This document shows positions 2,628 to 63,131 of a DNA stretch of 64,000 nt, one piece after another. The translations under genes and the position numbers were made by a program. How positions within the stretch are numbered: position 1 is the first letter of the stretch; every line of letters begins with the position of its first letter. The DNA lies in the NCBI RefSeq assembly GCF_947623445.1, contig NC_135243.1, forward strand, positions 19,910,479 to 19,974,478, given 5' to 3'. This DNA is from Clavelina lepadiformis. Its lineage: Eukaryota; Chordata; Ascidiacea; Aplousobranchia; Clavelinidae. The notes under the pieces are model-generated. The model saw only the letters and a list, made by a program, of their open reading frames with translations. It did not search any database and had not been told where the DNA came from.

Positions 2628-10526
<7,899 letters not shown>

Positions 10527-31520: not shown

Positions 31521-34500
31521 ATGATACCATTATTCACAAAACTGCAAGAAGAAAACTATGACAACTTGGCTGGAAACGCTCGTGATCATTCTGTTTCTAA
31601 AGGAATTGTTATTTTATGTAAAGACGACCAATCTTCTGTTAAGGTTTGCATTTTAATCCTGTTTTTGGTGTATTGCAACCTCACAATAGTTATTCTACAT
31701 AAATGATATCTTTGCTTAAAATATATTTAAGCTGTAAACAAATGAGATTAATTATGTTATCTGCCACACACTTAGTTATCAATTGACTCTGAATACGTTT
31801 ACCACTTTCTGTTCTTAGGCTACTTTTCATAGTTGTTTCATGTGTTATATATACCGGTACCTATCATAAGTTGCTTTATGCGCAGCCGTATACAACTTAG
31901 TAGTTAAAATCCCAACAATATAACAAAATGTACGAATACATATGGCTTTTAATATTAAACACAGCTTTATTTCAGAAATGATGAAGTTCTTCACATTTAA
32001 GCTAATACTTACTTATTGAATATATCAATTTTAAAAAATTTTTAGAATGGTAATGTTTGTAACTTTATTGGGAAAAATTGTACAGTTAGGACATTTTTTC
32101 TTGCTTAAGCATTACTTAACTCAATGTTTCCTCAATCTATTCCTTAAATTGACTTAAATCTTAATCCAACCTTTACTTATGAAGTTTAACTGGTTGCAGT
32201 TTTTCTATGGTATACAGCTGCCCATCTTTGAAACAATTTCTACAATGCCACCTGCTAGTGATATAGTCACTGCATTTTATTTTAACCTAGTTACAAACTA
32301 TTATTAGTATTAGTGGTAGTACTAGTAGTAGTATAGTAAATTACTTTACAGCTACCTGTTCCTCACAGTATTCAGCATTATTCAATCAAGCATAAACTTA
32401 CACACAAAATTTGTACCTGCATATAAAACACAAACACAATGTATTTTGGTACTAAAATGGCTGTCAATCAACCACATAACAAGTTGAAATGTGCTGTTCC
32501 GCTATTCCTCAGCTACTCCTAATTTTAAGTTTTTGTTATCTCACTTGAATGCTAGTGGCGCATGGTTATATCAGCTTGTTACTTTGCAATTGTAGAGATA
32601 TAAATGTGCTCCTTTTTCTTTGTTTCCATCCCCGATCACAAAAGATGGATTTCAACTTTTGACATTTTTACAACCTCACATTAATAAGTTGATCCATGAT
32701 GTTAGCCAGGACGATGAATTTATGTCATCTGTCTTTCAGAGGTGAGAATATTTGTATCTGTTCTTTAGTATTAAATGATTTAATCATTCCAATGCAACGA
32801 TACATGGAATGTTGTAAATGAAAGCTGCAGTTTTAAAGATTTAATTTTTACAGTGTTATCAAAGTTGATGATTTCACCAAGAAGTTATATAACATTTATA
32901 AAGCTTCAAAAACTTCTGTGAAGCAGGTAATTATTCTGATGATTTGGAAAATTTGTAATTGAATCTATAATATATATAAATAGATTTACATTTTTTTGTC
33001 ATAGCGGCGCATTTGTGTGTTAAGTTCTAATTCCTCTCATTGTCATAAATGCCTAAGTAACATACCTAAATTTTTTGTTTACTTTTTGATGGTTTTGTTT
33101 TATTTCATATTTTAATTTTATCCTTGATTAAAAATATTATAAAAACTTGATTTTGTTATATTTTACCTAGCAGTTACAGTTGGGAATTTTTCGCTCTGAT
33201 TACATGTTTGATTGTGTCATCGAAAAAAATAGGACGGAAACGAACAATCCGAAGCAAATTGAAGTGAATACCATTGCTGCTAGCTTTATTGGACTTGGCA
33301 GTCGAATTAACTCTGTCCATTGCAAGGTCTTGAAAGATGCCAAAATGAAACCTCTGACTACACAAATGCCTAAAAATGAAGCATTAACTAAAGTTGCACA
33401 TGGTTTGGTCGCTGCTTGGGAGACTTACGGAAATTCAGATGCAATTGTTGTATTTCTAGTCGAGGAAAATGAAGCAAATTTCTTTGATCAGCGGGCACTG
33501 GAATACGCTATTCATGAAATTAATGAAAGCATCATTGTGAAAAGAAAAACATTCACAGAACTTCTTAAAAGTATTGTGTTGTCTTCTGATAGGAAAATTA
33601 CAATGTAAGATGTGAACATTCAGCGAATTATGTTTGCAATGTTCTTAACAACAAGTCATAAACATGACATGTTCTGTATTTTCATTACTTCACTAGGAAT
33701 GATGAAGAAGTTGCCGTTGTTTACTTTCGCACTGGTTACACCCCCAATGATTACACTAATGAGCAGGTATTGTTGTAGAAAATTTTTGTATAAAGGAAAG
33801 TTTGGTCTTACAGGCTTCAACATACGGCAAACGACTCGTTGCAGCTAAACTATTTTGATTGTAGTTCTGGGATGTCCGTCTTAAATTGGAGAAGAGTTGT
33901 GCCATACTTTGTCCCAGTGTTGGCTACCAACTTGCTGGATGTAAGAAGATGCAGGAAGTGCTGGCACAACCTAATGTCCTTGAGAAGTTCATTGACGATG
34001 AAGATGTTGTTCAAAAAATGAGGAGCACTTTTGCTGGACTTTATGCACTAGATATGGTAAATTCATTGTTGTGTTGACCTCTTAGGAAGTCATCGTAGAA
34101 TGAAGAACATTCTTTGGGTGATACAACGTTGAAGGCAATTGCATTCAGCTGGATCAAATGATCACTCAGTTTGACGTAGTCTTTTTTAAATTAAAGCTTC
34201 CCAATTTTTTACAATCCTGTTAAACAGTTTTTATTTTTGCATTTTAATCATAAATCTTACACGATTCAATTTTTATGGGCTGTCTATTAATATCCTAAGT
34301 TTATGACACTCAAGTTATTTTCATAACACAGAATTCTGATGGTGACAATGCTGTACAAATGGCTCGTACAAATCCTGACCACTATGTTCTGAAACCACAG
34401 CGTGAAGGGGGAGGTAAAAGTAGTTTCACTGAATTAGAATACTTTTAAAAAACTTTCTGGGAGTACTCAATAATATAGAAAGTGTTTTTATTCATATTTT

Positions 34501-46314: not shown

Positions 46315-46520
46315 GCATAGGTTACTTAGAGCTAATCTAAATGCTATAAAAAGCATTGCTGTTGTTTGTTGCAAGTCATAGCCTACGTCATGAGGAAGCA
46401 AAAGTGCTCATTTTATTCGTAGTTGCAATTTTTACAAAACGGCGGTGGCCGCAAGCACAAGAAGCCAAGAAGCTTCGAAAAGGATGCAAGCAAAAGAATT
46501 CAACATTGTATACTGCAGGT
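46315..46520 (+). repeat. Dispersed repeat A, copy 1
   Basis: Shares TAGCCTACGTCATGAGGAAGC and AAAACGGCGGTGGCCGCAAG with 60735-60890 in the same orientation. An older, more diverged copy lies at 47640-47725. Non-coding; length and family unknown. Confidence 0.75.
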
Positions 46521-48743: not shown

Positions 48744-49488
48744 CCAATCTTCTGCTGAATATGATATCCCAAATGTTTCAATCAAACTCTGAACATCCCT
48801 ACAATAAACCAGAGTATTTTCTTTACCAAAAAAATTCTGTAAATTCTTTCTCTCTGTGGCGGTACCACGCAAAACTTGTATCCTTTTCAAGGAGATTCTT
48901 TTCCTTTAATCTTGACCCTAAAAGTTATGCAGCTTCTTTTGAAAGATCTAACTCTCCTGTGAGATCATCCAGCTGAGTTTGTGAAAACAGCTTGGGAGAG
49001 TCATCGTTTATTTCTTCCTGATAGTGCTCTACATCGACTGCACTTCTTTCAGAATTAGATTCTGAGGAGCTTTGCTTCACTGTTGAAGGATTCGGCACGG
49101 GAATTTTATCACAATGTGGTACAGGCCTCATTGCTGACTTTAAATTAGGGTACTTGATTTTGGATTTGTTTTTTCTGTTAAACCCCTTAGTGTTCACCAT
49201 ACAAAACTAATAGTCATTGTGGTGGTTTTCTTGCTCCCTCCATACCATAGGGACGTCAAAAGGAAGGCTTTTGAGTTTTTTCTGGTACCACATACTTAGC
49301 TTTGATGCACACGATCTACATGTAACATGTGGGGCGAAGTGTTTATCCTGGTCACCAAGTTTAATGCCAAAATAGGCGTGATAAAGTTTCTTTATATTCA
49401 TTGTTATGCTGCATCTGTCACCTGCAACTGTGAACTCTCCGCAAATATAACAGAAAGAGTTTGGTGAGCTAGTACATTTTCTAGGCAT
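48744..49488 (-). pseudogene. N-terminal half of a dispersed repeat-protein family, decayed
   Basis: Starts with MPRKCTSSPNSFCYICGEFT, a zinc-knuckle-like Cys pattern (C..CG, later C..C), and continues HYAYFGIKLGDQDK-type sequence. I recall this start from a multi-copy protein family in hydra, aphids and other invertebrates, probably transposon-associated. The frame is broken by TAG at 49207 and by TAA at 48925. The second falls where the family has Gln before LGSRLKEKN, so it is a likely CAA-to-TAA change. A frameshift then moves the rest to another frame (NFFGKENTLVYCRDVQSLIETFG). Similarity stops abruptly after ISYSAEDW near 48744, at the same point where the other fragment (58960-59712) begins. 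Dead copy. Confidence 0.65.
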
Positions 49489-50324
49489 TTTGATACTTAA
49501 AGTAATGAAATCTCGTTAGTTTATACTACAAACAAAATCACAGTCACTTGTCTGCGTTATGTTTTATGCGATTTGCGTGTTTGACTCATAACTGACAGTC
49601 TGTAAGTCCTGGTATCATTCAAATTCGTTTGTTTGATAACAACAGTGTAATATAAACAGAAACAAATTGAAGGTTTAAAACACTTTGAAAGCTTAAAACA
49701 CTAAAACACATAAGGTTAGTATCACATCAAAGCTAAACTAAATAACTTGATTACTCGTCCTGAAGTGGAGAAGTTGCTTCAATAGCTGCAGTAATAGAAA
49801 TGTTAACCACAAGCTTAAGCACAAGTAACTATTGATAAAATTGTAACAGATAAGTGCTCCATGTGATAACAAAATTTATCTTGATAAATGATATCCTTTT
49901 GACAACAATGTGGGTAGTAAAACGCAAATACGAAAAATTATACGGTTTTTGACCGTAACTTTAAAACCTGATGTGACAGACCAAAAAAAATGGTATTTTT
50001 GAAATCAGCGCACTAAAATTAGTTAAAAAACGTTGAGATCATACGCAACAAAATTTTCATGCAGACCAGTGAATTAATCTGCTCAAAAGTAGACATATTT
50101 ATGACACCTAGAACATGCAATTTTAGGGCCGGGGCCCATTGGCTTCCCAGCCCCCAGCTAAATACGCTAATGTAAAGAAACAGCTTTACTCGCAAATGTC
50201 GGGTATGTGGAGGCCATGTTCAGCAGCCCATGTAAACAACTGACTTAAAACTTCTCATATGATCCGCAAGTTGATGGCATACCAACTGGTAAGCCTTACT
50301 ACAGGCTGAAAACCACTGAAAAAC
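49489..50324. other. Unannotated stretch left of the inverted repeat
   Basis: AT-rich with no supported exon; short open frames only. Ends where similarity to the right arm begins. Confidence 0.4.
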
Positions 50325-50801
50325 AATGATTGATAAGGGAACTGCTATAATCGTACATTTATTACGTCACAACAGTGGGTTAAAACACGACAGTTATTCA
50401 TATCAGTATTAGGAGAGTATTCAAAACTGGATTCTAGTGACTTTTTATAATCCTAGCAACTGCGCCGGACAGATCGACAAAAGCGACATCACGTGCCCAG
50501 ATAAACGCATAAGTCTGAAATCCCACGACACTCTTTCTTTAGATTAATAAAAATAAGCCCAGAGACTCCAAAAATTGGCAAAGATTGGGGGCGCGAGGGC
50601 TAGAACAAGTTAAAAAATGGCATTTCTGGTTTAAGTCATGCCCAATGTATTAAAAAATACTGCACACACACTTGAGCTTGTACCAAATATTTGTGTAAAG
50701 CTGTAATGTAAAACAAGGCATTATAAAATGGTAAGACATGAGATAATGTCTGGTAAAAATTCTTTCACTACAAAGTTGCTAACTTACAAAAGAAAAATGC
50801 T

Positions 50802-50880
50802 ATATAGGATCGGATCTGTCGTTTAGTCGTTAAAATACTGAATTGTACGATCCAGATTCGATGCTGAGGGGGCTATATTG
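50802..50880 (+). repeat. tRNA-derived SINE-like sequence, left arm
   Basis: Reads like a degenerate tRNA head: a box-A-like GTTTAGTCG, and about 35 bp later a box-B-like GATTCGATGC, ending near the tRNA-length mark. The right-arm partner (about 58160-58228, opposite strand) keeps better box A (GGTGGTTTAGTGG). It does not fold cleanly as a working tRNA. Probably a SINE copy captured before the arms duplicated. Confidence 0.45.
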
Positions 50881-51929
50881 TTGTTATGATGCCCCGGGAA
50901 ACAACAAAAAAGTAATTTTTCTTAAACTAGGTTATGTATAATAGTGTGTTTCACAAAAGCAAACAATCGTAATAAGAGTTCTATTGCTAATGTATTGTTC
51001 TCTATAGTACGTGCAATTAAGTTAAATATACACATTTGTCACACGTCGTAACTTATATACAAGCTCAGAAATGAAGTTTGATTAATTGGATCTGATTTTT
51101 ACGTTTATAAAATGAAAACGCGTAAGTTACAGTGTATAACAAACTAAAAAAGCGTCTAACCTAACTTTGACGCAAATAACTGACGGTAAATGTTACGTTA
51201 TTCCAAATACAAATAATATGCAAATAATAATATACCAAATATACAAATAATGATGAGCAATATACGCAGTGGAACAGGGAATACGTAAATTTTGCGAAAT
51301 ATCAAAACAGGAAAATATTCAAAACAGCAATTTGTTTTCATAATGTATAGAGTGTACGGCGATTTGTGACACGCCATTTCTTTAACGGCGATATTTCATA
51401 ACAACGTCGATTTGAATAACATGCTAACGCCTGTATATGGTATCTATTTTTTTACACATAGAAATATGTTGTAAAAATTTTACTTAAACGTATGTCATAA
51501 CTCATAACCCACAAAATCATGCATATGACAGATCCTAATATACTGTAGAGCTGAGGGTATTGTTTTGCCCTTGACTATGCTAACAGTGAAACCAGCAGTG
51601 AAATGTAGCAGCCGTGCTACTCTGCTAAATCTTTTGAGATATGCTTGTTGTGTCCGTTTGACATTTTGTAATTTTATAACAAAAAGCAAAAAGATTAATT
51701 TAACATTTTTGAATTTAAATTAATTTAATAAGTAGATAATTTAGATGAATGATTTAGATAATTAAAAAACTTTTAGATTAATTGAATTCGTCATTTTATA
51801 TACAACAGGATAGACGTAGCAAACGTCACTCAAAACATCAATAAAATCGCACAGGATCTACGTAAATTACATTACGTAAACGTTTCAAAATATATGTATA
51901 ATTGTGAAATTATCAAACTCGTTTTTTGA

Positions 51930-52030
51930 CGCATGAATCACGCAAGATAATTTCGTCATTTTACGCCACTTGTCGTGAAACATAAGATCCGCTTTCGTTG
52001 ACAACTCGGTATATCCAGTATAAAAGGAGT
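51930..52030 (+). promoter_or_regulatory. TATA promoter of left profilin-like gene
   Basis: TATAAAA at 52019-52025 lies about 270 bp before the ATG. The upstream block GATCCGCTTTCGTTGACAAC, together with AACTCGGTATATCCAG, is almost identical in the right arm (TATA complement at 56224-56230), although the coding exons differ greatly. This fits a shared functional core promoter. Confidence 0.7.
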
Positions 52031-52293
52031 GGTTGTTTCACAAAAGCTAGCTCACGTTACCGCTTGGTAAAGGCAGACGGATAAGTTCTAGCCTACACAT
52101 TTTTCGTCGTTAGTCGTAGTGATTTAGATATTTAGGTATACAGCACAACTATGTTATAGTTTGAAGAAAAATTTAGCAATACATTTCAACGATCACTCTC
52201 GGTTTTATTGTCTTTTGTTATCAGCTGGTAAGCTGAACTTTCTTTTTTAAATTTAATTTTAAAGTGCTTGAAAAGTAGTTCAACTATTAAAAC

Positions 52294-53098
52294 ATGAGCT
52301 TGGGATGGGATTATACTTGTGAAAGTTTTTTGAACAAGAAATCTAACAAAATAGATTACATCTGGATCGGAAATCTAATCCAGATGTGGGGTTCTGCCGG
52401 AATTGAAAGAAACGCCACAGTGAGTAGAATTGGTTATGGGGGGGTTATCAGAAAGAATTACTTCTACTTCTTAAAAATAAAATATCTCTATTTTCTCTTT
52501 TTCTACGTTTTCACTTACGAAATATTTTAATTTTATTGTGTCTTTTGTCGGATGAATTAATTAATTATTCATTTTGTGTAATTAAATTATTTGGATGATT
52601 CATTTAACTCACTTATCAATCTTTCAACTATGGAAAATTTAGAACAAGCAATTATTCTTAACAGCAAAACTGCATTTTAAGTTTTGATTTTATTCACGTC
52701 TGTTCAGTAGCGACTTAACTGTTGCTGTTTTAATTTCACGTAAATTTAGTCGAAGGAAATAGCAGCTCAAAACACAGCAGGGGATTTCGCAGGCGTCACC
52801 TTCCACGGCCTGGAGTATACGTTCTTGCGCAAAGAAGACGATATCACATACTACAAGGCGCATGGAAAGGTGGCCCTTGTTTACAATGCACACGATTGTA
52901 AGTAGAGAATGTCCCATCGAAAACAGTATGTTAGAAATCTATACTAACATATACATACAGAGAATTTGTTATCAGTTATGCTTTTTCCCGTTAGTTACCC
53001 TGGTCGTGTTTGGAAAAGATTCAGTTGAAACCGGTGGAAATTGTCGATATGTTTTGGATTACGCCAAAAGCTGGCTGAACGGGAATGGCTACCATTGA
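52294..53098 (+). CDS. Profilin-like gene, left copy
   Basis: Exons 52294-52419, 52750-52897 and 52995-53098 join in phase (0, 1) to 125 aa, typical for profilin, the actin-monomer-binding protein. Profilin features are the N-terminal Trp helix (MSLGWDY, normally part of the poly-proline site), IWIG and WGSAG as the first strands, then GVTFHGLEYTFLRKEDD (the family's G....G.KY....DD strand), KVALVYNAH strand, and a C-terminal helix ending WLNGNGYH. Identity with known profilins is low by eye, so actin binding is not assured. No signal peptide. Convergent with the right-arm copy, with 3' ends about 2 kb apart; AATAAA at 53310-53315. Confidence 0.72.
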
Positions 53099-53352
53099 TT
53101 GCTTTATTTATTTATTCAGTTAACAGATCTTATTAATCAAGAAATCTTTGTAATGAGAGTATATAGTAGCTGTACTGTATCATTCAAAAATACGTTTATC
53201 AAAATAGGCAGAAAATCTATACATCAAATTAATCTAGGTAAAAATAATGCATTTGGCTGTACATATACTAATTGAAAATACGTTTATTTTTGTTAACATT
53301 TGCATGTTCAATAAAAATTAACACATATAAATTACTTCCATGAGATGTTTGC

Positions 53353-54898
53353 TGTAATTATGCAATAATTTTACTTTAAATCATAGTCGATAAAAATTTC
53401 CTTTCTCCTGTTCGATGTTTCTGGTAAATAATGCTAAATAAAGGCAAGAATACCAAGAAAAGTGTGAACATGCACAAACCACGTTCGTAAAGAATTCCTG
53501 GATAACAATCATGCTAAAAAATCGGTTAAAAAAATTGCTCGCCTTCTTTATATAGCACAAGATAAACTTTACTCGTATTAGCAGTTAAAAAAAATTACGT
53601 TTGTATCATAAAAATAAAAAATGAAACTGAAATGTTTTGAGACTCGTGAACGTATAATATACAGCACATGACGACTTCCATTTGGTGTGGCATTTTATCT
53701 GCTTCAGATTATTATAGAAGATCATATACGAGCATCCTTTCAGTTATATGATGTGACGCGATATACAACACACTGGCCTATAAAACGTACAAAACGTTTT
53801 TTTGTTGCCGAGAATATTTCAAACGTGTTCACCTAATTTTGAGTCACTGATTTTAAAAATGCAATTTGTTTTGTCCTATCTGGTCTAGTTAACTTGCAAA
53901 AATGAACTAATTTCTGAGAAACATTAGGTGTTTTTACTGAAATAGTCCGTCTTAAAATAGTGATGAAATGGTTTTGTCAAAACTGAAATACACATTTATT
54001 TTTCTGACCATTTACCCACAATTCAGTAAAGTGTATTCGATTAGGCAAGGCAGACAAAAATTCCTCATAAAACGTCATACATTAGCCGTAAACTTTTGCT
54101 TTAGTGGTCGCCGAAAACAATATAGCAAGAGAAACAACAAACAACTTTTTTCGTTCCCGGTGTTAACTTATTGCTTGGCATTGATACGCACCGCAAAGGC
54201 ATTAAAACGCTACTTTTTGAAACATTCTGTCATCAAGGCTCGCTTATACGTTTACATAATGCGCTGTGAACGAAATCAATGTCACAATATATCACTTCGA
54301 GCACAAAATAGGATCAACTAGAAGTGCATATGTTGAGACATCAATGTAAAATATTCTTTCATGCTTCATATGCGACATGTCCTGCATCCGGAATAAGATC
54401 AACAAAATAGGGCTTCGCTAAAACTCAGGCTGGTCAACGGGAAAAGTTTAAACTTCTGAACATGCCAAAACGTTCCGAAATCCTCACTGAATTTAGCATC
54501 GTGCTCACTAGCATTGGGTATAATTCGTTTTTAGCGTTGATTTGCTTAACATAAAGACATGTGATTTATTATCACTGCTGCCACTTCGCCTTTACGCACC
54601 AATTTGACGTCTTATTTGCTCTTGTGCGCTTCGAGTATAATTGCTAATTCACGCTTATTGCGAATAATTACTTCCTGATCACTTATTACGCACTCTGCGA
54701 AATATATTCCATTTCTACATTTCCTATGTTACTGTAATTGCGTTTATATTTTTGTATATTTGTGTATCTGCATAGATTGTGTACTGTAGACATATCTTTG
54801 CTCTCAAAAATATTACCTTTAGTGTAATATTCACACGACTAACGTTTTTGTTATATTTCCCAAATTATAAGTACTGTAATCTTTTAATTATGCTCGTA
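53353..54898. other. Spacer of the inverted repeat
   Basis: About 1.5 kb present once, between the arms. A 117-codon frame (53968-54321) is basic and has no domain. A short segment (about 54100-54140, GTGGTCGCCGAAAACAATATAGC) recurs near 60380 with a few changes. No gene called. Confidence 0.5.
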
Positions 54899-55154
54899 TA
54901 GCAAACATCTCATGGAAGTAATTTATATGTGTTAATTTTTACTGAACATGCAAATGTTAACAAAAATAAACGTATTTTCAATTAGTATATGTACAGCCAA
55001 ATGCATTATTTTTACCCAGATTAACTTGATGTATAGATTTTCTGCCTATTTTGATAAATGTATTTTTGAATGATAGAGTACAGCTACTATATACTATCAT
55101 TACAAAGATTTCTTGATTAATACGAGCTGTTAACTCAATAAATAAATAAAGCAA

Positions 55155-55954
55155 TTAATGGAAGCCATTCAAGTCGAGCCAGTATTTGGCTTCTAACAAA
55201 CTTCTTCGACAATATTCACCGGTTTCAACTTCATCTTTTCCAAACACGGCCATGGTAACTAATGGGAAAAAGCATAACTGATAACAAATTCTTTTTATGT
55301 ATATGTTAGTATAGATTTCTAACATGCTGTTTTCGATGGGACATTTTTTCACTTACAATCGTGTGCGTTGTAAATAACCACAACCTTTCCTCGCGCTTTG
55401 TATTCTGATATTTTGTCATCTCCTTGCAAGAACTTGTACTGCAGCCCGTGTAAGGTGGCGCCTTCGTATCTTCCAGCTCTGTTTTGAGCCTTTACTTCCT
55501 CCAACTAAATTTTACGTGAAATTAAAATAGCAACAGTTAATTCGCTACTGAACAAACGTGAATAAAATCAAAAATTAAAATGCAGTTTTGCTGTTAAGAA
55601 TAATTGCTTGTTTTAAATTTTCAATAGTTGAAAGATTGATAAGTGAGTTAAATGAATCATTCAACTAATTGAAATACACGAAATGAATAATTAATTAATT
55701 CATCCGTCAAAAGACACAATAAAATTAAAATGTTTCGTAAGTGAAAACGCAGAAAAAGAGAAAATAAAGACATTATATTTTTAAGAAGTAAAAGTAATTA
55801 TTTATGATCATCCTCCATAACCACTTCAACTCACTGTGACGTTCCTTTCATTCCCGGCAGAACCCCACTTGTAGGTTGGACTACCGAGCCAGATGTAATC
55901 TATGTTGTTAGGATATCTGTTTAGGAAATCTTGACAAAAAGGACTCCAAGACAT
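55155..55954 (-). CDS. Profilin-like gene, right copy
   Basis: Exons 55835-55954, 55357-55504 and 55155-55258 give 123 aa. The N-terminus MSWSPFCQDFLN is closer to the classic profilin MSW start than the left copy. It is followed by IWLG, WGSAGNERN, GATLHGLQYKFLQGDDK, GKVVVIYNAHDF and a C-terminal helix ending WLDLNGFH. Exon 2 and 3 lengths equal the left copy exactly; exon 1 is two codons shorter. Splice sites and introns are conserved. Against the left copy, exon 2 differs at 22 of 49 residues and exon 3 at 13 of 34, mostly by amino-acid-changing substitutions. Both copies are intact, so neither looks like a pseudogene. The left copy's AATAAA reads AGTAAA here. Confidence 0.72.
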
Positions 55955-56223
55955 GTTTTAATAATTGAACTACAGTACTTTTCCAACACTTATTATATTT
56001 AAAAACAAAGTTCAGTTTACCAGCTGGTAACAAAAGACAGTAAAACCGAGAATGATCATTGAAATGTATTGCTAAATTTTTCTTCAAACTATAACATAGT
56101 TGTGCTGTACGCCTAAATATCTAAATGACTACGACTAACGACGAAATATGTGCAGGCTAGAACTTATCCGTCTGCCTTTAACGAGCGGTAACGTGACCTA
56201 CCTTTTGTGAAACAGTTACCTCT

Positions 56224-56330
56224 TTTTATACTGGATATACCGAGTTGTCAACGAAAGCGGATCTTATGTTTTGCGACAAGCGGCGTAAAGGGATGAAACT
56301 ATCTTGCGTGATTCATGCGTCAAAAAACGA
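56224..56330 (-). promoter_or_regulatory. TATA promoter of right profilin-like gene
   Basis: On the - strand, TATAAAA (complement of 56224-56230) follows the conserved block GATCCGCTTTCGTTGACAAC seen in the left arm. The upstream segment with CGCATGAATCACGCAAGATA is also shared. Confidence 0.7.
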
Positions 56331-56503
56331 GTTTGATTAGTTCCCTATTATACATATTTTTTGAAACGTTACGTAATTTACGTAGATCCTGTGCGATTTT
56401 ATTGGTTTTTAATTGACGTTTGGTACGTATATCCTGTTGCATACAAAATGACGAATTCAATAAATGCAAAAGTTTCTTAATAATATAAATTATTAATCTA
56501 AAT

Positions 56504-57146
56504 CAGTGCTTCTCAAACCGGGCCACTTGGCTCACTAAAGGGGGAATTTTTAATTCCAGGGAGGAAATTTTCTCTAGGGAGGAATTGGGGAGGAAAAACT
56601 GTAGATGAAAAAAAACTTTAATTTTTTAATTTTATTTGTAACAGAAAAATCCTCTCGAAAATGTTGTTTAGATGTCTACAATAGTACGCGAGGACAAGCT
56701 CCTTTGACCTTAACTGCAGTGACTGACGTTATAAACGTGTCTGTTTGGTTCATAATGGCTATTGTTTTCTCTTTATTGTTAGTACGGTACTTATAGAACT
56801 AGCTAGTAAGCTAGTGATGAAAAAAAGAGGAACACACGATATTTGCGGAGACCTTCGAGCAAAACTCACACGCTTTTCTCCTCGATTTTCTTTATTAACT
56901 TCTCAACATGAGGCTCACGGTTCTCACTAACAATGAGCAACGATTTGTTTGGTTATTTTGTAAGAGCGTTCTTTTGCAATTTTGAATTTTATTCCTGAGA
57001 TAAATCTTCAAAAGACATCATCCAGTGACAATATTCAGGTAGTGTAAAATTTTGGAAATTATTTTTTTGTGATTTTTTTGGGGGGAGGAATTGACGGTGT
57101 TTTGGTTGGTAAGGGAGGAATCGGAAAAAAACTTTGAGAACCACTG
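56504..57146. mobile_element. Non-autonomous hAT element in right arm
   Basis: Bounded by CAGTGCTTCTCAAACC and CTTTGAGAACCACTG, with the perfect 8-bp target duplication ATCTAAAT at 56496-56503 and 57147-57154. The 643-bp interior has no transposase. The uninterrupted site survives in the left arm (complement at 51739-51746), so the insertion followed the duplication that made the inverted repeat. Confidence 0.92.
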
Positions 57147-57627
57147 ATCTAAATTATCTGCTTATTAAATTAGCCAAAATTATCTGCATGATTTTATGGA
57201 TTATGACATACGTTTAAGCAAAATTTTTGCAAAATTTTTCTATGTGTAAGAAAATAGATACCATATATAGGCGTAAGTATTACTCAAATCGACGTTGTTG
57301 TGAAATATCGCCGTTAAAGAAATGACGCGTAACAAATCGACGTATACTCTATACAATATGAAAGTAATTTTCTGTTTTAAATAGTTTTTCTGTTTTGAAA
57401 TGTCGCAACATTCACGTAATTCTTGTGCCGCTGTGTGCATGGTTATTCATTAGGTGTTTAATTGATAAGGAATAACGTTACATTTGCCGTCAGTTATTTG
57501 CGTCATTGTTAGGTTAGACGCTTTTGTCGTTCTTATCATACTGTAACTTATGCGTTTTGTTTTTAAAAACGTAAAAATCAAATCTAATTTGTCAAACTTT
57601 ATTTCTGAGCTTGTATATAGGCTACGG

Positions 57628-57985
57628 CAGGGGTCGGGAACCTATGGCTCGCGAGCCAGATATGGCTCTTTTGATGACGGCATCTGGCTCGCAGATAAAT
57701 CTAAGGTGGCATTTCTTAGCACAATTGTTACGAATAAAACTTTTCTGTTATTTGTAGTTTTGTAATTTCTGTACCATGCAGCACCAGAAATCGCATTAAC
57801 AGTAAGTAGCATGTTATTAAAGAGTAAATTCAGACATTTACCGTTGTCTAAAATTGTTGGTTTTGCTTAAAAATGCACATGTTAGTTGCATTAAGTGTTG
57901 AAAAATATTATATGGCTCTAACGGAAATAAAATTAACAATATGTGGCTTTCATGGCTCTTTCGCCAAAAAGGTTCCCGACCCCTG
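57628..57985. mobile_element. Second hAT MITE in right arm
   Basis: Ends CAGGGGTCGGGAACCTATGG and AAAGGTTCCCGACCCCTG, with the 8-bp duplication GGCTACGG at 57620-57627 and 57986-57993. The interior carries GGCTCGCGAGCCAGATATGG and related GGCTC words seen in widespread animal hAT MITEs. 358 bp, non-coding. The flanking arm sequence (TTTCTGAGCTTGTATATA) is present without it in the left arm. Confidence 0.92.
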
Positions 57986-58159
57986 GGCTACGGTATGGTG
58001 ACCAATGTTTATTCTTAACTTTATTGCTCGTATTATAGAGAAATATATGGAACTATTATTATGACTATTTCCTCTTGTGAAACACACCATTACATAAGCT
58101 ATAGTTTAAGAAAAATTAATTTTTGTTTGTTTCCTAGGGCATCAAAACAACAATGTAGG

Positions 58160-58228
58160 CCTAGCGCCGACCAGCATAGAATTTGGACCGAACAGTTCAG
58201 TATTTCAACCACTAAACCACCGAGCCGG
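58160..58228 (-). repeat. tRNA-derived SINE-like sequence, right arm
   Basis: On the - strand: GGCTCGGTGGTTTAGTGGTTG (box A) and, about 35 bp later, AATTCTATGCTGG (weak box B). It is the inverted-repeat partner of 50802-50880. Confidence 0.45.
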
Positions 58229-58959
58229 TCCTATATAGCATTTACCTTTTGTAAGTTGGTAGCAATGTAAGCAACTTTGTAGCGAAAAGATTTTTACCAG
58301 ACGCAATTTTAGGCGCTACCCTTTCGTACTATTTTGCTTTACATTCATATTTCCACAGTTATTTGTACAAGCTCATGGTGTATGTTCTTCAAAAATAAAG
58401 GCATAACTGAATGTAGAGATACTATTTCTTCACTTGTTGTAACCCTTGCACGGTTTCACCCCAATGTTTGCAATTATTGAAGTCACTGGGCTTATTTTTA
58501 TTGATCTAAAGTAAGAGAGTTGTGGGATTTCAGACTTACGCGTTCATCTGGGCACGTGATTTCGCTTTTATTGATCTGTCCAACGCTGTTCCCAGCATTG
58601 TAAAAAGTCACTAGAGTCCAGTTTTGAATGCTCTCCTGATACTGATATGAAAATTTTTCATTTTTCAAGAATGCGTTGTGACGTAATAAATAAACGATTA
58701 TAGCTTATTCGATTATCAATCGATTACACAATGGAACACAATTTTCGTTGACTTCGATCTAACAATTGTTTTTGACTAACTTTTGGGCGCTGAATCTAAA
58801 AATGACATAAGTTTTTCTCTATCACGGTAAGTTTTTTAGCTAGGCACCCATCACTTTGTCTCATACATAACCCACAAAAAAGTACAACATTTAAGACATC
58901 TGCGTTTATTGTATAAAACGTTTAAGAACTACAAGCAACTGAAAGTAACTCAATGGTTT

Positions 58960-59712
58960 TCAAATAAACATTTGTAAAGCTCTATTCTGTTCCTTAAAAC
59001 GCATATTGCTTCTGCAGGCCAAATAAAGTGCGTGTTTTAGGTCAAAAATTTTCCTGGCATGTTCCAGCTGTGGGCAGTCTCGCTTAATACTCCAGCAATA
59101 GTCAGCAAGCATATGTAAGTCCCATCTTACCTGATATCTTTTAAATGATAACCACGCATTTTCTTCCAATTCTGACATTGAACCACTGAAACGTTCATCT
59201 TTGATGGGTTGCCGAATTTGTGGACCATCAAATACACCAGCCTTAATTTTTTGTATTGACAGGCCAGGAAAAGCCAAAACGAGGTAATTGAAACAGTTGC
59301 TTTCAGTTAACAATGTTTCAACGAATTGCTTCATTAGGCCGAGCTTTATATGTAGCGGTAGGAAAATAATTTTCTCTCTGTCAACAAGTGGCTGATGTAT
59401 AATATTGGGATCACCAGGTTTAAAGTCAGATCTCGGAGGCCAGTTCTGACCTCGAGCTCTGCTGTCACACATACACAAATAGCAGGGGTACTTTGTGCAT
59501 CGGTGTTGCTGACCAAGAAGAAAACATACCATTTTAAGGTCTACACATATGATCCAATTGTGCTTGTGATATTGCAACAATTCAATGACTCTTTTTACCT
59601 TTCCGTATTCTTCACGAAAACTAACTGAATGTGCAATTGGTACTGCACCGTATAAGTTGCTATTATAGAGAAGGACGCACTTTAAACTCTGCTTGGAGCT
59701 GTCAATGAACAT
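58960..59712 (-). pseudogene. C-terminal half of the dispersed repeat-protein family
   Basis: One open frame of 250 codons with SKQSLKCVLLYNSNLYGAV, KHNWIICVDLKMVCFLLGQQ, CTKYPCYLCMCDSRARG, LPLHIKLGLMKQFVETLL, FPGLSIQKIKAGVFDGPQIR and RWDLHMLADYCWSIKRDCP. I recall these as the conserved core of the same multi-copy invertebrate family as 48744-49488. Relative to the family it lacks its N-terminal half, and about 85 residues appear deleted between AWLSFK and RYQVRW without breaking the frame. Similarity begins at FIDSS, exactly where the other fragment ends. An open frame this long suggests a fairly recent insertion. The biochemical role of the family is unknown to me. Confidence 0.65.
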
Positions 59713-61664
59713 TCAACATTCAGTTGAGTTGTAGATCGGAATTCCCAACTCCCCAGTAAACCCTATTTATCATGCGTAACACAGTCGTCATCTTTTCAAG
59801 GCATTTGATAGTTACTGATGCAAAATTGCGCAATAGTGTGAAATGTTATGAACCTGGAACCACCACTCATCACTCTGCAAGGATAGGAACAGGTATTATT
59901 TTATTGCTTGTCTGTTTTTCCAGGAAAGTACGAATACATACATGGTTAAAAGTGGAAAGCAATTAACTTCAATTTTACCATTCTTATCTAAATTCGTTGG
60001 ATGATTGCATCCTCCAACCAAAAATGGGGGAAAAAGCATCGACCTAAATCGATGCCTGCGCCTTTTTTGCTTAATAATTCAGTAAGCGTGAGTTATGCAC
60101 AGTGGTTCGATGTATTCTTTCAACTAAGATCAACGCTGTTATTCCGTAATTACATTAGCTTTTTCTCTAAATACATTCTAGAATAGTCCATGGTTGTTGC
60201 ATAACGTAAACTAAACTAAACATTTGCTAATAATCACGTTATGATCAGCACAGCACACTGAAATCTAGCGATAAGGTCGCTGCAAAGAGCACAGAACAGA
60301 AATGCGCAACATAATATAGTTAAACACTTGGTGTCGACAAAGCGCAATTAAGATTGCATTGTACATTCATTGCATAGTTTAGTGGTCAACGAAAACAGTA
60401 TAGCAGGAGAAGCGTCACGTTTGGCCAATACTAGTCAACCAGCATGGCGGCGTATCATCTCTATTGGTATCGTACTGTACTTCTATTCCACTAATATATC
60501 GATACAGGCACGTTGAAGCCAACTCCAAAGAATCTTTGGAAAGATTCAGATTCTTGCCAAGTCATTTAAACTTTATTTGTACAACAAGTTTTGGTGATGA
60601 AGAAAGCGATTTATAATTGTCATCTGCAAGGTTAGCATCGCTACCTCACCGTACAATCCCTTCAGTTTGAAGTAAAGATTCCAGCAGCGCAAAGCTTCAT
60701 AAACAATACAGAAACATGAATATCTTTATTGTGTTGGAAATGTAAGTTATAGCCTACGTCACGAGGAAGCGGAAGTGCTCATTTGATTCATAGTTGCAAT
60801 TTTCACAAAACGGCGGTGGCCGCAAGCACAGCAAAGAAACTTTGAGAAGGATGCAAGTAAAAGAATCAAACATTGTTTGCTGCAAGGTTTATTTAAAGAG
60901 TGGTGTGCGGTGTCCTCGTACGTGTATTCAGTGGACAAAAGTTAGATGGAAGTTGAATTTTAAATCTGAGAATAATTGTCAGTTAACATTCCGGTACTGA
61001 AATGGGAATTTTTCAATAACAAATATTATTGCAGTTGTTTGAATCGTGTAGATAAATATAACGTTTCAGTTAAAAGGCAAGAAACGGGTAGAATATATAG
61101 CTAAAGCGAATACTTAAGTACGTAACTGAAAGATCTTGTTTAATAAAGTCTAACCTAACTCACGCTGATGTATTTATATTAAGGATGGTAAATGTTAAAC
61201 TACAGCTTACCAAGCTCAGATTTGGCTGAAGGCGCTATGGCCTAGTCCGATGCAGCTGATTGACTTAGACAAGAATGCTTCATCTTGCGTCATATGCAGC
61301 ATATTCTATAGCTAGAACATGCTGACAGCACAGCAACTTATTTGTAGTATTTATGTTTAATAAACGTCAACTGCAGATAAGCGCCTACCTGTTCAGTCAC
61401 TTTCCATCATTCTAAAAGGCTTTAGTCATTCTACCTAAATATAACGTACCATAATCGGTTCATAAGACAGCCATTTTGATATAACATGGTGACGTCAAAA
61501 TAACCGCTACCTTCGTCGTAATTGCATGATTTGTCAAACGTATTTGGAAAAAACTGCTCAATCACAAAACATGATTGAAATTTTTTACTGATAATTACAA
61601 ACATTTTTTAGACTTGCTTCTCACTTACTAGAATTTATCAAACAAAATTTCGGCTAAAGATAAG
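59713..61664. other. Intergenic region upstream of fucosyltransferase
   Basis: Contains dispersed repeat A (60735-60890), and near 61228 a short tRNA-like stretch (GCGCTATGGCCTAGTCCGATG) that matches a box A but shows no convincing box B. No exon called. Confidence 0.4.
60735..60890 (+). repeat. Dispersed repeat A, copy 3
   Basis: Same orientation as 46315-46520 and close to it in sequence (TAGCCTACGTCACGAGGAAGC, AAAACGGCGGTGGCCGCAAG). Confidence 0.75.
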
Positions 61665-63131
61665 ATGATTAAAAAAGTGTTATTGGCCGCTTTTCTGTAT
61701 TTTGCACTTGCGGTATTGGCTGTTTTCTTATGGTCTGTCTCTAGAACACAGACTACTACACTCTATGAACTTGTTCCCTCAAAAAAGGCACAATTTGTAC
61801 ATCAACCGCAGCCATCTGCACCAAGCACCTTAAAAAAAATCGACCCGCAAAAACCTCCTCTGATTTTATATTGGGGATATCCTTGGCATGATAAAAGCAG
61901 TGGAGAGCCAGAAGGACAAAAGATAGGCATTTGCGACACAACCTATGACCGAAGTAGGATAATTGAAGCAGACGCTATCGCTTTTCATTACACAACCATT
62001 CGTGCAGAAGATTTGCCTTGGAAATATTACAGGTGCTTATATTTGCTTAAAACCTTCCTTATCATAGACGTGACAGAACATGGTTTACTGGTCTTTCGAA
62101 ATTTATGACTTGGAAAACAAATACAAATACTGTAAATAATGGAAAAAATTAACGCCTGTAAATGGTATAAATAACTTAGTCCATGTAGAATGATTTATTT
62201 TTATTGCGTAATTCGAGTAAATTTAGCTTTTCTTACGTTCTATTTTATTTGTTACCATCTAAAATCAAACAAACATAGAGTTTTCGCTTGTAGAGGAAAG
62301 AAACTGTAGAATAAAACTATAAAGTCATTCTACAACAGTAAACTTTTTTCAAACTAGATAAAAAGCATTGCTTTTGCAGCAAATATAGCATAAATTTCTT
62401 ATTTTTCCTTGGATAACTGTAAAACAACTGTTTTCGCGTTTAGGCCAATCCAGTGAAGCGTGCGGTTTGACTTCTGTGTCGTTGGATCTGTTACCGGTCT
62501 ATTTTGTTCTAAACTTCTAAATGCCTCCTCCCCTAATCATATGTGGGACAATTATCATATATGGGGTCGACATCATATGCGGAACATTAATTATAAAAGC
62601 GTGGTTCGAATCTGTAGATTTTGAGAATGACTCATCGGTTCTTATTCTCAACTCATTCGTTTGCAGATTAGTAGCATGTTACATTGACAATGGTTAGTAG
62701 CACGTTGTATTGACTATTTTATTACATACGAACCACGTAGATATAGATTGTACCATTGAAAGAAGATGATCTAAACTTTTTAATCGATAAAGTAAACCAC
62801 ACTTCCAAAAGAATGTTATTAAACGTTGATGAGTTTGACGGTCTTGTGAAGGACAAAACTGTGGTTAATTTGTCAATTTTGTGACGGACATCTATTTGGT
62901 TGCAGAAATCCCAACCAGTTGTTTGTGTGGTGGTCGGCTGAGGGTCCTTCCATTTTGGGTCATGCCGGAATAAAACTAGGAGGCTATGACGGTTTTTTCA
63001 ACTGGACCTGGACCTACCGCCGAGATGCGGACGTTGCGCGTAATTACGGATATCGGGGTCACGTTATCAACTCTGTAGCGAAAGGGAAGAAAGTTGTTGA
63101 TGAGTTGGTCGCGGCAAAAACTGATTTAGCG
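61665..63131 (+). CDS. Alpha-1,3-fucosyltransferase (GT10), 5' part
   Basis: Type II Golgi enzyme that transfers fucose from GDP-fucose to N-acetylglucosamine-containing glycans. Exon 1 (61665-62032) encodes a short basic tail (MIKK), one membrane segment at about residues 5-25 (VLLAAFLYFALAVLAVFLW), a Pro-rich stem, and the start of the lumenal domain (PPLILYWGYPWHDK; EADAIAFHYTTI). Exon 2 (62906-63131) joins in phase (Lys-Tyr-Tyr-Arg-Asn-Pro) and has LFVWWSAEGPS followed by the GT10 hallmark FFNWTWTYRRDADV with YGYRGHV. It ends at a good donor (GCG/gtaagc). The C-terminal catalytic part, with the GDP-fucose motif, must lie beyond the window. The ATG at 61665 fits the family layout. Confidence 0.88.
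62536..62590. repeat. Short tandem repeat in fucosyltransferase intron 1
   Basis: Three imperfect units of about 18 bp, each starting ATCATATGTGG/ATCATATATGG/ATCATATGCGG. Confidence 0.7.

Follow-up and report, generated by a model that had tools for sequence, protein, structure and literature searches.

Two genes of Clavelina lepadiformis, here called A and B, face each other inside an imperfect inverted repeat in the stretch of 64,000 nucleotides that we analysed (the window; C4:19910479-19974478). Both may derive from profilin, a small actin-binding protein of a family usually considered conserved. Arm A of the repeat lies at 50344-53356 on the plus strand and arm B, which carries two inserts, at 54897-58704 on the minus strand, with a spacer of 1540 bases (53357-54896) separating them. 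Gene A (LOC143452170; 52294-53098, plus strand) encodes 125 amino acids and gene B (LOC143452171; 55954-55155, minus strand) encodes 123, each protein being identical to the annotated one. Both genes have three exons, introns in phases 0 and 1 with GT-AG borders, and an open frame; the proteins begin MSLGW/MSW and, judged by eye, have no evident hydrophobic leader. In gene A, exons 1, 2 and 3 occupy 52294-52419, 52750-52897 and 52995-53098, introns 1 and 2 occupy 52420-52749 and 52898-52994, and the 3' flank extends over 53099-53356, all on the plus strand; the exons of gene B lie at 55835-55954, 55357-55504 and 55155-55258 on the minus strand. A TATA-like box, TATAAAAGG, was recognised by eye at 52019-52027 (plus strand) before gene A, and its counterpart in arm B, TATAAAAAG, at 56222-56230 (minus strand).

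Base-by-base alignment of the arms revealed that the coding exons of A and B differ much more than the DNA around them. Exons 1, 2 and 3 differ at 27.5% (33/120 aligned bases), 27.0% (40/148) and 23.1% (24/104) of bases, against 7.6% (25/329) for intron 1, 6.2% (6/97) for intron 2 and 3.9% (10/258) for the 3' flank. The proximal 5' region differs at 23 of 289 bases, and DNA on the sides of the untranslated regions (UTRs) is as alike between the copies as the introns are. Taken together, 97 of 372 exon bases and 31 of 426 intron bases differ (Fisher p = 4e-13). A preliminary description of this DNA, based on hand alignment, had claimed that the exons diverge faster than the introns, which the full alignment bears out together with the low divergence of the introns and the near-identity of the 3' flank; the codon table reproduces exactly its counts for exon 2 (40 bases, 22 residues replaced and 8 codons altered silently), and those for exon 3 (24 bases and 13 changed residues) were likewise recovered.

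The contrast follows the coding exons closely. For the inner arm (51844-53356), the proportion of differing bases is 0.261 in the coding exons (372 bases) and 0.069 in the remainder (1123 bases). When the exon mask was slid circularly along this arm, only two of the 1494 shifts, +1 and -1 base, matched the contrast, so that its maximum coincides with the coding exons, give or take one base. Likelihood segmentation placed the likeliest “hot” segments at 52297-52342, 52751-52879 and 53048-53082; support for the start of the first (52294-52298) lies at the ATG, and support for the end of the last (53082-53098) reaches the stop codon. The inner edges are supported over 52341-52386 for the end in exon 1, 52876-52892 for the end in exon 2 and 53021-53048 for the start in exon 3.

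That the two arms are mis-joined haplotypes, a concern raised in the preliminary description, is unlikely: the arms are inverted, the exons are 23-28% different, and the whole window contains no N and belongs to an assembly built from 117-fold high-fidelity (HiFi) reads (PMC10884593). Some other candidates were also set aside. A mechanism borne by RNA or cDNA does not agree with UTR sides that are as alike as the introns, and hypermutation of CpG sites does not explain the exons, where CpG transitions account for 5 of the 97 differences. A search of the arms for structured RNA gave 0 Rfam matches at the gathering score.

The silent sites of the exons allow the age of the pair to be estimated independently of the introns. 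In the 69 codons with identical amino acids, 43.2 silent sites carry 15 changes (0.35), a rate roughly five times that of the introns (31/426; p = 1.6e-6). The excess is retained in the 22 identical codons whose neighbours are both unchanged in amino acid (6 changes on 13.3 silent sites, p = 0.0003 against introns) and in the 18 without any base change in neighbouring codons (4 on 10.0, p = 0.005). In the exons, silent and replacement sites have diverged to a similar extent, the replacement divergence (dN) being 0.30-0.34 and the silent divergence (dS) 0.25-0.33, and a three-sequence codon model that includes a further copy, C, described below, gives a neutral divergence of about 0.3 between A and B. 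Fixing the neutral divergence at the intron value of 0.073 worsens the fit of the codon model, with a doubled log-likelihood difference (2dlnL) of 21.4. The exon silent divergence suggests that A and B may be an older pair than their introns imply, the intron clock being rejected.

This result bears on one of the two explanations offered in the preliminary description, namely that strong positive selection by itself separated a young duplicate whose introns and flanks would record the true neutral rate, as has been read from snake-venom genes. Such a view can point to an exon dN exceeding the intron divergence over fourfold, to a dN/dS that would reach 5.2 at the intron clock, to the 24 of 54 residue changes that alter charge, and to a two-class codon mixture on the A and B branches, which assigns 36% of codons a dN/dS of 0.03 and 64% a dN/dS of 2.24. 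The gain of this mixture over one with the same class fixed to 1 is 5.74, a value attained by 7 of 213 data sets simulated under the null model. However, a recent pair would be expected to show silent divergence of 0.073 and not 0.35, the silent excess stands also apart from other changes, and dN/dS over the whole gene is not above 1. The outer part of the repeat, moreover, is diverged beyond the inner non-coding DNA. We therefore hold diversification of a recent pair to be distinctly unlikely, and this explanation of the preliminary description is disfavoured.

The arms themselves form a gradient. Ungapped blocks of the outer arm differ at 139 of 897 bases (0.155), the inner non-coding DNA at 77 of 1123 (p = 5e-10), and divergence drops towards the centre, to 1/100 in the innermost full interval scanned; over the outer arm as a whole, 216 of 1143 bases differ. 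Fourfold sites of the exons (7/27 differing) are above the introns (p = 0.004) and indistinguishable from the far arm (182/912; p = 0.46). Two neutral ages arising from one duplication imply either later levelling or regional differences in mutation rate or constraint. Between the introns and those of copy C the alignment is weak (z 4.5-5.6, compared with 23-40 between A and B), so that long-term intron constraint is not evident.

We suggest that gene conversion between the arms probably levels the non-coding DNA and that selection maintains the differences between the two coding sequences, which was the other explanation of the preliminary description and which the silent excess and the gradient support. 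The reasoning is that old silent and replacement differences in the exons, young introns and flanks, the fit of the contrast to the exons and the gradient of the arms would all follow from conversion combined with selection against converted coding DNA. In such a scenario, A and B would have begun as an inverted duplicate of a profilin-derived gene, older than the introns imply. Conversion between the facing arms would then have repeatedly levelled the inner arm, including promoter, UTR sides, introns and 3' flank, and converted coding sequence would have been purged by selection, since the two proteins had presumably acquired different jobs. The exons would thereby have retained their old differences and later gained further replacement changes, rather more in B. 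Both proteins are most likely intracellular profilin-fold adaptors, whose binding surfaces may be specialised for different partners.

Several observations weigh against conversion guarded by selection. Conversion is deduced from rate contrasts in one assembly and not seen as tracts, and the silent counts are small. The silent estimate of 0.35 (likelihood range roughly 0.2-0.5) exceeds the outer-arm divergence of 0.155, which implies either that the outer arm is partly levelled too or that exon silent sites change faster. Inner edges of the “hot” segments are unsharp: divergence is lower in the 3' part of exon 1 and in the 5' part of exon 3 (6/50 in the first 50 bases of exon 3) and is raised at the start of intron 1 (8/49). 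Intron 2 is merely 97 bases between two diverged exons and would need short tracts or strong selection. Neighbouring exon differences are mildly clustered (33 adjacent pairs against 25 expected, p = 0.028), so part of the silent changes may have arisen together with others in multi-base events. The G+C content is higher in the exons (0.44) than in the introns (0.28). Finally, the differences are flat over the three codon positions (33, 33 and 31 of 123), as would also arise from neutral drift of the exons.

Neutral drift requires separate consideration. One or both copies might be decaying under relaxed constraint, their exons drifting at dN/dS of about 1 while non-coding DNA alone is levelled or constrained. 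The codon model assigns A and B a dN/dS of 1.00 since the duplication, compared with 0.26 for the branch to C (2dlnL 12.3 over a single-ratio model), and copies of this family do die, C carrying a stop and a fragment, D, being reduced to one exon with a stop. Yet both genes are open, annotated and bordered by GT-AG introns; A, B and C have 50 invariant residues in common; the mixture assigns 36% of codons a dN/dS of 0.03; and drift offers no reason why exons should escape conversion. Such relaxed constraint is very unlikely as the explanation.

The fast protein change proposed in the preliminary description stands in so far as dN/dS is raised on both branches. A ratio above 1, as venom-type acceleration would predict, is not reached by the whole gene, and the mixture assigns one to its class of 64% of codons. 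The simulations give modest support to genuine positive selection on some of the codons, and relaxed constraint at many sites is still compatible with them. With C as reference, 20 residues are changed in B alone, 12 in A alone and 22 differ in all three copies, although this polarity is rough because C carries a stop and its silent sites are nearly saturated. Replacement changes are biased towards A in exon 1 and towards B in exons 2-3, while silent changes in exon 1, judged by eye, lean the opposite way; an exon swap between the copies was set aside on these opposite leanings.

The check for further genome copies that the preliminary description had named was run and gave C and D besides A and B, plus two weak matches. 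Copy C lies about 50 kb away (C4:20016427-20017306; 8428-9307 of stretch L017) and has all three exons, the first of which contains an in-frame TGA. Fragment D consists of exon 3 only, with an in-frame stop (about 1973-2071 of stretch L018). The two weak matches resemble exon 1, lie on C4 at 3.57 and 3.77 Mb (expectation value, E, 0.24 and 2.6) and were taken as chance. As a separate observation, a repeat just past D shares 88-89% identity with segments to the left of arm A at 48882-49311 and 49847-50071 of the window.

Copies C and D give some ground for a different origin of the contrast, in which A and B would be young and the exons of one copy would have been overwritten from a third paralogue with unalignable introns, in tracts ending at the exon edges. 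Both share exons but hardly introns with A and B, and the divergence is indeed restricted to exons. However, among the sequences recovered by the genome searches no donor closer by silent sites than A is to B was seen: C stands at a silent divergence near 1 from both, even though the protein of A is as near to C (57% identity) as to B (56%). The 5' UTR side is partly alignable to C and yet was not replaced, and the outer-to-inner gradient would be left unexplained. Import of exons is, in our opinion, very unlikely.

The putative kinship of A and B to profilin rests on the modelled fold of B and on gene layout. In sequence comparison, A scores 25.5 bits for Pfam Profilin (PF00235), narrowly above the cut-off of 25, while B (17.4) and C (20.6) are below it. 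A profilin gene of the same animal on C3 reaches 43.3 bits and has two introns in phases 0 and 1, which A and B share; intron 2 falls in the same alignment column, intron 1 two columns away (by eye), and the identity of A and B with this profilin is about 26%. The structure model of B (mean predicted local distance difference test score, pLDDT, 63.5) was compared with the PDB, where the best 50 of 1479 matches were profilins, save the Roadblock domain 3kye and the chimera 8bjh; several of them bear allergen names and are presumably profilins. The best match had an E of 6.3e-4 and a template modelling (TM) score of 0.68 and was the one match with E <= 0.001 among those 50. The model of A was too poor for use (pLDDT 39.5), and the fold evidence refers to B only. 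Residues W5 and W32 of A, which we take to belong to the poly-proline site, are invariant in A, B, C and the C3 gene.

When five Clavelina sequences, including one represented by two exons only, were placed in a tree, A, B and C stood apart from the two C3 genes with a support of 0.96. The second C3 gene, about 7 kb from the C3 profilin, is profilin-like, and two of its exons were recognised (5813-6222 of stretch L045); a third exon was not found in the stretch fetched around it. The C3 profilin model itself (816-1985 of stretch L025) may be annotated differently. Matches on C9 presumably represent profilin-4.

Protein searches gave A, B and one ENA fragment of 90 amino acids, on a contig of 863 bases, which resembles copy C with few differences; the yields were one of two candidates at E <= 1, three of 135 at E <= 10 and three of 277 at E <= 0.01. 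A sequence search of the PDB with A, B and C returned seven weak matches, with no profilin among them. The lack of further homologues weakly suggests a family confined to Clavelina, as the protein database search retrieves only relatives that have short exact words in common with the query, and the C3 gene model is likewise unlisted. No literature linking Clavelina with profilin was found.

Other systems may be compared with this pair. In primate L/M (red/green) opsins, which are also neighbouring duplicates, the exons diverge more than the introns and intron divergence lies below silent exon divergence, which has been explained by conversion levelling the introns and selection guarding the exons (PMC3213168; PMC3924837). 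In the gibbon opsins, however, replacement divergence does not significantly exceed silent divergence in a functionally constrained gene (PMC3213168), and the functional difference is known, whereas here dN is close to dS and the arms are inverted. The duplicates GOT1p1 and GOT1p2 of the copepod Tigriopus californicus resemble A and B in that islands of divergence persist amid stretches levelled by conversion, but these genes have no introns and the islands lie inside one exon (PMC3728101). Strongly different exons and similar introns are also reported for the phospholipase A2 and three-finger toxin families of snake venom, where accelerated segment switch in exons to alter targeting (ASSET) was described (PMC2474615, PMC2711939). 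In contrast to these secreted multigene toxins, A and B lack an evident leader and their exon differences are spread substitutions, not swapped segments.

Instead of adaptors, the proteins could serve recognition or conflict, for example in gamete, self/non-self or parasite contact. The profilin fold would then have been drawn into a role where positive selection at most codons keeps the copies apart and conversion within the palindrome keeps their regulatory DNA alike, giving two co-regulated, distinct specificities; we consider this unlikely, though conceivable. Under conversion opposed by selection, the locus represents a compact natural case in which coding sequences stay diverged although the DNA around them is levelled. 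As the contrast tracks the coding exons, the residues that selection keeps different become directly accessible to study, and the pair also permits the question of whether inverted repeats preserve the co-regulation of duplicates with diverging proteins.

The two inserts of arm B, for which arm A has no counterpart, are dispersed repeats resembling miniature inverted-repeat transposable elements (MITEs). Across the genome, the first (56504-57160) has at least 41 matching pieces, counting itself (40 of 81 candidates were scored), and the second (57627-57996) at least 40, itself included (40 of 199 scored). Many copies of the second are 97-100% alike among the matches listed, and this near-identity indicates that its insertion is probably recent. 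In the spacer between the arms, 106 bases match a stretch of L019. A direct repeat of 90 bases, 91% identical, flanks the inverted repeat at 46370-46459 and 60741-60830 of the window. Beside arm B, an open frame of 250 residues (58960-59712, minus strand) has no Pfam match at E 0.01 and, by eye, looks like part of a mobile element. Elsewhere in the window, Pfam pieces correspond to a fucosyltransferase N-terminal domain (61632-62108) and a eukaryotic glutathione synthase (33171-33608).

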